Below, piece by piece: positions 1,400-9,550 of a DNA stretch of 39,588 nt. The stretch is from positions 1 to 39,588 of IMG/VR virus record IMGVR_UViG_3300032236_001549. One strand, given 5' to 3'. Under the pieces are notes generated by a model. That model worked only from the letters and a program-made list of their open reading frames with translations, was not told where the DNA came from and made no database searches. The position numbers were made by a program, and so were the translations under genes. This DNA comes from a virus. Every line of letters starts with the position of its first letter. Positions within the stretch are counted from its first letter, which is position 1.

Positions 1400-1487
1400 T
1401 GGACTCCTTCGGAAGAATTGAACTTCGTGTCATCCATCCTGCTATTTAAAGACGCTGGTTTAGAAGACCAGTGCAGGGACGAAGGAG
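1400..1487 (-). tRNA. tRNA-Arg(UCU)-like gene with atypical D-arm region
   Basis: Read leftward, the ends pair as a 7-bp acceptor (CTCCTTC with GAAGGAG), followed by T and an encoded CCA. A T-loop TTCAATT with a mostly paired stem lies at about 1411-1427. A 5-bp stem CTGGT/ACCAG closes the loop CTTCTAA with anticodon TCT (1462-1464), identical to the usual tRNA-Arg(UCU) loop. Only nine bases separate acceptor and anticodon stem, too few for a D arm, while about 27 bases lie between anticodon stem and T arm. CCTGC (before) can pair with GCAGG (after). It may be a reduced tRNA, a degenerate one, or a tRNA mimic. Confidence 0.6.
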
Positions 1488-1507: not shown

Positions 1508-1536
1508 ATTATATACTAATTCAGTTTCTATGTCAA
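1508..1536 (-). promoter_or_regulatory. Consensus sigma70 promoter for the tRNA operon
   Basis: On the minus strand TTGACA (1531-1536) and TATAAT (1508-1513) are separated by exactly 17 bases, a perfect match to the sigma70 consensus. Transcription should begin near 1501, about 14 bases before the tRNA 5' end. Confidence 0.9.
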
Positions 1537-5546: not shown

Positions 5547-5971
5547 TAGATTAGCTCCACACTAATTAGCTTTTTCGTATCAGCATCAAATGTATACTTT
5601 ACATTATTATCATGAATATCGTCTGTTCCTACATGATAATCATTCTTAAACTTAAATAGTTTAACGTAATCATAGATAGTTATTGTATTTTTTAGTTCAT
5701 CAAAAGATGAATCACAAATTTCACAACTCCAATCCCAACTGAACTTCAGAGTTTCAGGAACGAATTCATTATACGCTGCATTGTATTGCTTGTCAAATTT
5801 AGCAGCTTCAATCTTGTATTCTGGCTTTTCCCACTTGATTCTGTACTGTGCATCAGGACTAAAGTGAGGATTCCTATCTTCTACCCAGATACCAAGAGAA
5901 GTAATATAGGTTTCAACCTTATGTCCTTCTTTCCATGCCTTGATGATTTCAAAGTGCTTATGATTAGCCAT
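5546..5971 (-). CDS. KH-x-AW-x-G phage family protein, copy 2
   Basis: 141 residues. The N-terminus 'KHFEIIKAWKEG…W…P.F…YRIK' is the shared domain. A longer insert (about 55-115) contains a 'WSCEICDSS' Cys pair, and the end 'FDADTKKLISVELI' matches copies 1 and 3. It is tandem with copy 3, overlapping by 8 bases, so local duplication is likely. Confidence 0.85.
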   Translation of the reverse strand: MANHKHFEIIKAWKEGHKVETYITSLGIWVEDRNPHFSPDAQYRIKWEKPEYKIEAAKFDKQYNAAYNEFVPETLKFSWDWSCEICDSSFDELKNTITIYDYVKLFKFKNDYHVGTDDIHDNNVKYTFDADTKKLISVELI

Positions 5972-8250: not shown

Positions 8251-8470
8251 CATTATTATCGATGCTGTTAATATAATTCCTAAAAAGATCCCAAAAAGAA
8301 TGTCTTGATTCATATTTTCTAAACTCTGCATTAAATATAACTAGTAAGCCACGATAAAGTTCAATATGATTTTCTAGTTTTGCAAACTCTATCTTGATAG
8401 TAAGAAAATCGAATCTTTCTTCATATTCTGAAGGAATATCATATTTGATCTTGTTGAATTGCTTTTTCAT
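8240..8470 (-). CDS. Hypothetical protein
   Basis: 76 residues, beginning MKKQFNKIKYDIPSEYEERF, helical and charged. It begins 32 bases inside the 3' end of the RNA ligase gene, a longer overlap than usual here. Function unknown. Confidence 0.7.
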   Translation of the reverse strand: MKKQFNKIKYDIPSEYEERFDFLTIKIEFAKLENHIELYRGLLVIFNAEFRKYESRHSFWDLFRNYINSIDNNDVW

Positions 8471-9371
8471 CCAGATAGTTTCCTAGATAATTTCTTATCC
8501 ATTCTAACCTATCTTGTTCCTGAAGTAAAGTAAATTCTTCAACATTCATCTGAATATGATCAATTAATGGAAAATATTCTTCTGGATATGACTCTTTGAT
8601 GTTCTTGTTTAGTAATTTATCTGTATTATTACACCGAGCAAAGAACTTTTGGATCAGATAATAAGGACTCTTGATTTTTGTTGCTCTGTGGTCATCTGTG
8701 TATAGTACGTACCCTTCATGCCTACAATCCTTTATACGATCCTTCAATTCACCGAATCGCATTTTTTCTGGCTTTCCTACAGAATTACCATAGATGAAAT
8801 GATTGTATTCATGTACAGGAACTACATTAGTATTCCAGATATTTGCTCTAAAACCAAGAAAATAGGCTCCAACTTTTTCTGGAATAATGTGTGGATCACA
8901 AGGATGAACAATTTCATAGAGAAGAGTTGATCCACACTTTGCTAACATTTCTACCCTGGCTATCTGATCTTCAGTCAATGATTGATGAAGAATAACAGAT
9001 CCCATTGAGACAAAATCCGAATCAATTGATCCTGTAGTAGAAAAGAGTAACTTACCTTCATAATAACTAACAGATAACATGAACCCATTAACTTTACGAA
9101 TAGCAGTTACCATTTCATCCGCACCAATCCTAGGTGCTCTTGCTTCAATACCATAATTGTAGATTTTTCTGAAAGGATTAGCAATCAGATTATATTTTTC
9201 ATCAATGACCGCTCCTCTTGTATTCTCAATTATATCATTCCAAATCGAATCGAAAAAACAGCGATTTTTATACTTTAGAACAAAAACACCAGGAATAGAA
9301 GTTTCTTTCTTTGAAACTAACTTAGGATTAGATTCAACAAATTGCTTAACAGTTTCAGCATTAACGATCAT
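8439..9371 (-). CDS. RNA ligase, T4 Rnl1-like
   Basis: 310 residues. The nucleotidyltransferase motifs are visible: motif I K93-V-N-G with the probable adenylated lysine, 'TRGAVID' at 51-57 before it, 'LYEIVHP' (motif III region, about 151-157), E219-G-Y-V (motif IV) and K232-I-K-S-P (motif V). The family joins RNA 3'-OH and 5'-phosphate ends; T4 Rnl1 repairs host tRNA cut as an antiphage defence. The C-terminal domain (250-310) does not look like that of T4. The start at 9371 overlaps the upstream stop as ATGA. Confidence 0.9.
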   Translation of the reverse strand: MIVNAETVKQFVESNPKLVSKKETSIPGVFVLKYKNRCFFDSIWNDIIENTRGAVIDEKYNLIANPFRKIYNYGIEARAPRIGADEMVTAIRKVNGFMLSVSYYEGKLLFSTTGSIDSDFVSMGSVILHQSLTEDQIARVEMLAKCGSTLLYEIVHPCDPHIIPEKVGAYFLGFRANIWNTNVVPVHEYNHFIYGNSVGKPEKMRFGELKDRIKDCRHEGYVLYTDDHRATKIKSPYYLIQKFFARCNNTDKLLNKNIKESYPEEYFPLIDHIQMNVEEFTLLQEQDRLEWIRNYLGNYLDEKAIQQDQI

Positions 9372-9550
9372 GGCATGTATTTCAGGCAAAGAACTGCAAT
9401 AGAATAAAACATACAGATAAAAGAGGAAATCAAAAGGATTACTCCAATAATATCCGCTTTATTATGTTGATAAGAGCATGGACTTGATCCAAAAATATTA
9501 AGGATGAGAAATCCAATGACAAATAGACACAACCCAACAATGCTAATCAT
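9368..9550 (-). CDS. Small two-helix membrane protein
   Basis: 60 residues, beginning MISIVGLCLFVIGFLILNIF. Two transmembrane segments (about 1-20 and 34-55) are joined by a short polar loop with one Cys. The start at 9550 is preferred over 9565 because of the small overlap with the upstream stop. Function unknown. Confidence 0.75.
   Translation of the reverse strand: MISIVGLCLFVIGFLILNIFGSSPCSYQHNKADIIGVILLISSFICMFYSIAVLCLKYMP

Follow-up and report, generated by a model that had tools for sequence, protein, structure and literature searches.

The window analysed here (the whole stretch of 39,588 nucleotides of the IMG/VR virus record IMGVR_UViG_3300032236_001549) carries on its minus strand, from 1487 to 1400, a tRNA-Arg(UCU)-like gene of 88 nt with an encoded CCA, laid out as CTCCTTC-GTCCCTGCA-CTGGTCTTCTAAACCAG-CGTCTTTAAATAGCAGGATGGATGACA-CGAAGTTCAATTCTTCC-GAAGGAG-T-CCA (Table 1). 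A preliminary description of the locus had listed an acceptor stem, CCA, a T-loop and a UCU anticodon loop, all of which are present on that strand, and the nine bases that it had counted between acceptor and anticodon stem are indeed found there (GTCCCTGCA), while 27 bases follow the anticodon arm. Among the features of a functional elongator tRNA, the gene has a 7-bp acceptor with 3' CCA, a 7-nt anticodon loop with U33 and a purine at position 37 on a 5-bp stem, and a T arm with a TTCRA loop; a D-arm hairpin between acceptor and anticodon stem is lacking, only the 9 nt lying there. The discriminator is U, as in 15 of 31 sequences of the window's structural type (type I, see below); the usual discriminator of tRNA-Arg is A or G.

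Table 1. Coordinates of the predicted permuted tRNA gene, its parts and the upstream promoter-like sequence in the window.
Feature	Position	Strand	Basis
Sigma70-type promoter, TTGACA-17 nt-TATAAT	1508..1536	-	12/12 consensus match only
Whole permuted tRNA-Arg(UCU)	1400..1487	-	only R1 covariance-model match in window
Acceptor 5' strand CTCCTTC + G8 (pairs with C65)	1480..1487	-	predicted fold, type I alignment
D-helix strand CCTGC (nt 22-25 equivalent), directly before anticodon arm	1473..1477	-	covariation
Anticodon arm CTGGT-CTTCTAA-ACCAG, 5-bp stem	1455..1471	-	sequence and type I alignment
Anticodon TCT, in loop CTTCTAA	1464-1462	-	
V-helix 5' strand GTC (partner GAC, 1431-1429)	1451..1453	-	crosses D helix (pseudoknot)
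D-helix partner GCAGG (nt 10-13 equivalent), after anticodon arm	1438..1442	-	fold and covariation
Displaced D-loop GGA (G18 G19 A20 equivalents)	1433..1435	-	relatives' alignment
V-helix 3' strand GAC	1429..1431	-	fixed-register pair counts
T arm, 4-bp stem GAAG/CTTC	1411..1427	-	sequence and type I alignment
T-loop TTCAATT	1422-1416	-	
C65	1411	-	
Acceptor 3' strand GAAGGAG, discriminator T, CCA (CCA at 1402-1400)	1400..1410	-	

The predicted fold (z -2.4) consists of a long acceptor stem, a 5-bp CCTGC/GCAGG helix enclosing the anticodon arm, and a T arm, with the acceptor, D, anticodon and 4-bp T helices fully paired. The first strand of the D helix precedes the anticodon arm, while the second strand and the GGA 'D-loop' come after it. 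In a canonical tRNA, nucleotides 8-9 are followed by the 5' strand of the D-stem (10-13), the D-loop (14-21), the 3' strand of the D-stem (22-25), nucleotide 26, the anticodon arm, the variable region and the T arm. Expressed in this numbering, the canonical order 8-9, 10-21, 22-43, 49 becomes 8-9, 22-43, 10-21, 49, which, as read from the predicted fold, is a non-circular permutation. Because the D helix uses a strand lying after the anticodon arm, we file the gene as a variant and not as an ordinary tRNA. The pairing of GCAGG with CCTGC that had been proposed for the excess sequence of the variable region was a correct reading and is central to the molecule; this predicted helix also covaries among relatives. 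The claim that the gene leaves no room for a D arm stands only in part, since no hairpin occupies the nine bases, yet the gene retains, in rewired form, both a D helix and a D-loop containing GG.

ARAGORN reported no tRNA in the window, and at the Rfam gathering threshold nothing matched the window gene. The best sub-threshold Rfam match was tRNA-Sec (RF01852), a reading that we rejected on its score (28.9 bits against a cut-off of 47) and on the anticodon, which is UCU and not UCA. A scanner for the layout motif gave exactly one match in the window; applied to 300 dinucleotide shuffles, it gave none. A check by covariance model, suggested in the preliminary description, came out in favour of the gene: model R1, built from 23 type I relatives with the window left out, scores it at 87.7 bits (E 1e-26), the sole match in the window. 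On control phage records the strong R1 matches score 85-96 bits and the next ones about 19-26 bits, the latter presumably being canonical tRNAs. ARAGORN calls overlap only 4 of the 127 permuted genes listed, with other or undefined anticodons, and the Rfam tRNA model RF00005 catches some genes of the second structural type (type II) weakly, at about 30-42 bits, and, in the 13 loci tested, none of the type I genes.

The first search for relatives combined in one pattern a CCA, a UCU anticodon loop and an unusually long distance from that loop to a T-loop, and was followed by a structural scanner; two anticodon-free patterns (the displaced D-loop GTAAYTGGA and a window-like form) and a further search allowing other bases at position 20 were also used. 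Removal of duplicates left at least 127 clear permuted genes, 32 of type I and 95 of type II. A stricter type II set that includes the position-20 search and cultured-phage loci holds at least 122, and the relatives overall exceed 150, in two structural types. Matches to an exact anticodon-arm search were discarded, being mostly canonical tRNA-Arg or unrelated DNA. No copy of the permuted tRNA turned up in thirteen viral records in which the window's helicase gene is also present, and the nearby AAA ATPase of the window, used as query, yielded no relatives.

Covariation and pair counts throughout refer to sequences, shared ancestry included, and not to independent events; counted in this way, 95.1% of cells in the type I alignment (23 sequences, window left out) are paired compared with 68.6% after shuffling, and the covariation score is 0.752 compared with 0.205 for shuffled alignments (0/500) and 0.08-0.15 for slid controls. 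Two-sided changes occur in 22 of the 25 pairs of this alignment. The type I D helix, 5-6 bp long, has 94.8% of its cells paired and two-sided changes in four of five pairs, and the anticodon and T arms are both paired in 100% of cells. Two D-helix pairs of type II are Watson-Crick in 95/95 and 94/95 of the sequences listed, the second of them occurring as C-G, G-C, U-A and A-U; the third pair is often mismatched. Altogether 234 of 285 type II D-helix pairs are formed among the matches listed, against a shuffled maximum of 173. The displaced block of type II reads XXX-T-A-A-Y-T-G-G-A, corresponding to A14 R15 Y16 Y17 G18 G19 A20, and both Gs of the displaced D-loop are invariant or nearly so in the relatives' alignment. 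These alignments indicate that the homologues keep the permuted structure by compensatory changes. Scrambled homologues had been named beforehand as the outcome that would speak against the gene, and the opposite was found.

Of the 32 type I sequences, 31 form a pair between positions 8 and 65 (G-C in the window) and 3 form 49:65, and the division between acceptor and T stems is therefore 8/4 and not 7/5 in the window and in type I, whereas the type II branch is 7/5 with U8. Type I accordingly has the 8-bp acceptor and 4-bp T stem that define 8/4 tRNAs, and the window lacks their canonical D-arm. The first and last bases of the type I post-anticodon region form a short V helix, which crosses the D helix and so makes a pseudoknot. 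Its central pair is Watson-Crick in 32/32 type I sequences, with four pair types, when counted in a fixed register; the helix as a whole has moderate support (69.6% of cells paired in the type I alignment) and weak support when scored by longest pairing. Type II does not have it as a general feature. Among the type II matches listed, the Levitt pair 15:48 is A-U in 114 cases, G-C in 6 and other in 2, shared ancestry included and with few G15-C48 cases; because it covaries there, the usual L-shaped core is probably kept. In the window's type I no such pair was assignable. In known tRNA structures 26:44 is stacked on 10:25, nucleotide 9 lies near 23, and 21 lies near 8, 14 and 48. The new junctions 44 to 10, 9 to 22 and 21 to 49 join positions that are close in space, so the L shape could be retained.

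The anticodon-free search returned type II anticodons that are almost only those of Arg (UCU, ACG, UCG, GCG, CCU, CCG) and Ile (UAU, GAU) among the matches listed. The window-like pattern gave UCU in 25 of 27 matches, the other two being chance matches; type I exceptions to UCU are one CCU gene in Aeromonas phage AhSzw-1 and one Tyr-like gene. The latter (L157 4779-4870, minus strand) is permuted, resembles type I, has the anticodon GUA and lacks the usual GG in its displaced D-loop, and a type II-like permuted candidate with the same Tyr anticodon and a long variable part lies at L335 3109-3206. Among the type II matches listed, all 104 Arg genes carry A at base 20 and 17 of 18 Ile genes carry U, figures partly shaped by the patterns themselves, as the D-loop pattern required A20 and the window-like pattern GGA. 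UCU loci recovered with a pattern free of any base-20 constraint have A20 in 32 of 34 cases among the matches listed, and among 31 type I sequences with UCU, 29 have A at this position. In E. coli, A20 together with C35 is the classical ArgRS identity. CCA is encoded in 100 of the 127 permuted genes listed, and two loci (L116 and L144) each hold several isoacceptors of one amino acid.

Permuted genes often lie among ordinary tRNA genes, also in tRNA arrays of cultured phages of E. coli, Acinetobacter, Vibrio, Xanthomonas and Microbacterium: 80 of the 127 listed have a canonical neighbour on their own strand at a distance of at most 500 nt, in many cases of 2-10 nt, and in loci with at least eight canonical tRNAs only 5 of 54 permuted Arg genes repeat a canonical tRNA-Arg anticodon. 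Unannotated copies occur in many cultured phages, namely Mesorhizobium phage Cp1R7A-A1, Xanthomonas phage XacN1, Caulobacter phage CcrColossus, Microbacterium phage Zooman (two), Stenotrophomonas phage RAS14, Rhizobium phage RHph_I1_18, Escherichia phage Av-05, Salmonella phage Arash, Acinetobacter phages KARL-1 and ME3, Aeromonas phage AhSzw-1 (two in tandem) and Salicola phage SCTP-2. Unannotated copies are also found in Vibrio phages ValDsh2 and D383, among others, the ValDsh2 record being without any annotation. In Acinetobacter phage AM101 the place of the permuted tRNA is annotated as an antisense hypothetical protein, and the 'tRNA-Leu(taa)' of Escherichia phage 121Q is a misread permuted tRNA-Arg(UCU) (KM507819.1 73585-73666; L443 1989-2070). 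A type II copy with a single mismatch in the acceptor occurs in Escherichia phage A5-4, whose host is K-12 MG1655, and T4 and KVP40 gave no match to the type I model. The paper on XacN1 counted 56 tRNA genes using tRNAscan-SE 1.3.1 (PMC5852040). Other structured RNAs were seen in the same surroundings: a class A bacterial RNase P RNA (Rfam 146.8 bits) at L241 5521-5849, minus strand, on a viral contig that also holds three permuted tRNA-Arg genes; a GOLLD RNA (177 bits) at L302 3456-3885, in a tRNA array where a type I permuted tRNA lies about 1.8 kb away; and a group I intron at L286 2556-2760, near a further permuted gene of type I.

The permuted tRNAs are likely restricted to viruses. The strict type II UCU pattern, which fits 16 sequences of a partial viral set, was found on 2 contigs in a set of 84,980 cellular genomes, and both contigs look phage-like by gene content as judged by eye. 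The 121Q copy had no match in 5,426 E. coli genomes, and model R1, in a run without positive control, none in 46 genomes of one phylum.

The perfect promoter reported directly upstream of the gene is there (TTGACA-17-TATAAT, 12/12, 1536-1508) and ends about 20 nt before the tRNA 5' end. Two such 12/12 sigma70-like promoters lie in the first 20 kb of the window, and promoter-like sites overall are no commoner than in shuffles (99 vs 89.5, sd 8.8); transcription of the tRNA from its own promoter is suggested by this match, and only suggested. The second 12/12 site is at 5768-5796 on the minus strand. The phage is AT-rich (34% GC), and AGA is the commonest Arg codon of the window (222/467). An RNA ligase 1-like gene (phrog_562) is present at 8439-9389, minus strand, which we take to be of the kind used by T4 for tRNA repair.

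We consider that the window gene is a phage elongator tRNA-Arg(UCU) representing a natural non-circular permutation of the cloverleaf, with a probability of roughly 0.83 judged from the sequence comparisons, and that the permuted genes in general are most likely working elongator tRNAs. The U discriminator and the lack of a copy in the thirteen records with the helicase gene weigh against this reading. Transcription of the window tRNA would start at the promoter upstream of it, and the RNA would be processed by RNase P and folded into a normal L shape; host ArgRS could then charge it via A20 and the anticodon, and the charged tRNA would decode AGA/AGG during infection.

Three other readings had been offered in the preliminary description, and none of them is favoured by the comparisons. 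That the RNA serves, as a decoy or sponge, to divert host nucleases or modification enzymes that act on tRNA, with the permuted fold kept but no role in translation, would agree with the tRNA-cleaving defences that phages face (PMC12851939) and with the RNA ligase 1-like gene of the window. We nevertheless think it unlikely, since decoding better fits the several isoacceptors of one amino acid in single loci, the match of A20 and U20 to Arg and Ile anticodons, the frequently encoded CCA and the few duplicates of canonical anticodons. A D-armless tRNA resembling metazoan mitochondrial tRNA-Ser, in which the GCAGG pairing is incidental, would account for the mere nine bases before the anticodon arm; this we rejected as highly improbable, as it is already contradicted by the covariation of the D helix in type I and type II alike, and the GG of the D-loop and, in type II, the 15:48 pair are retained. 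A degenerating pseudogene or a chance match might explain why ARAGORN, and Rfam at threshold, miss the gene, but the fully paired helices, the conserved family with its compensatory changes and the absence of matches in 300 shuffles led us to reject both, leaving them a negligible probability.

Another alternative is that only the gene is permuted and that cutting and re-ligation bring its transcript back into canonical order. Such a return of the RNA to the standard order is known for some permuted tRNA genes (Soma 2014, as summarised in PMC10085705), but in those cases the transcript is circularised and then cut, whereas here the mature acceptor and its CCA already arise from the two gene ends, and swapping an internal block would require several cuts and ligations. 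The D-helix, V-helix and Levitt covariation is moreover found within the permuted order, and we regard such processing as very unlikely.

If the reading as permuted elongator tRNAs is true, the tRNA fold tolerates backbone rewiring in nature, and phage tRNA repertoires are undercounted, above all for Arg and Ile, which affects the codon-supply and tRNA-defence arguments resting on them. It is also possible, though we hold it doubtful, that these genes constitute a widespread and previously undescribed class of working phage tRNAs whose core is topologically permuted and, in the window's type, pseudoknotted. Evasion of host enzymes that read the normal D-arm/anticodon domain, such as tRNA-cleaving defences, would then be the reason why the class is retained, mainly for Arg and Ile. 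To our knowledge, all tRNAs are taken to follow the cloverleaf order. No earlier description of such permuted tRNAs was found in open-access papers, preprints being outside the scope, and the words 'permut-' and 'phage' are absent from the text of a 2020 review of non-canonical tRNA structures (PMC7609411).

The permuted tRNA-Arg(UCU) shares with canonical tRNA-Arg(UCU), for example that of phage T4, the acceptor and CCA, the anticodon arm, the T arm, the D-loop GGA and the occurrence in phage gene arrays, and differs from it in the permuted strand order of D-arm and anticodon-arm. Like the 8/4 tRNAs and allo-tRNAs, type I splits the 12-bp acceptor branch 8/4; those described by Mukai and Soell reportedly have the normal D-arm order and are said to be for Ser, His, Cys or Sec, not Arg. 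The TYMV 3' end and the bacterial Y RNA are likewise tRNA-like folds with altered backbone order; they are mimics, without an isoacceptor anticodon series, mature tRNA ends or a location in tRNA arrays. In the ARTEMIS comparisons the TYMV tRNA-like structure is a non-circular and the Y RNA a circular match to tRNA (PMC11472068). D-armless mitochondrial tRNAs (PMC7609411) also have no D-arm hairpin between acceptor and anticodon stem, but they are without a D helix, whereas here one is predicted to be made by another strand order. Circularly permuted tRNA genes, as far as the summary of Soma 2014 in PMC10085705 goes, likewise depart from the cloverleaf in gene order, but their RNA is circularised and cut back to the standard order, while in the present case the mature RNA, too, is predicted to have a different order. 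In the non-circularly permuted hammerhead ribozymes (PMC10085705), internal segments are likewise naturally reordered with the fold kept, the one being a ribozyme and the other a tRNA. Before these hammerheads no non-circular permutations were known in natural RNAs according to Eckert et al. 2023 (PMC10085705), and the permuted tRNA, if true, would stand beside them as another natural case.
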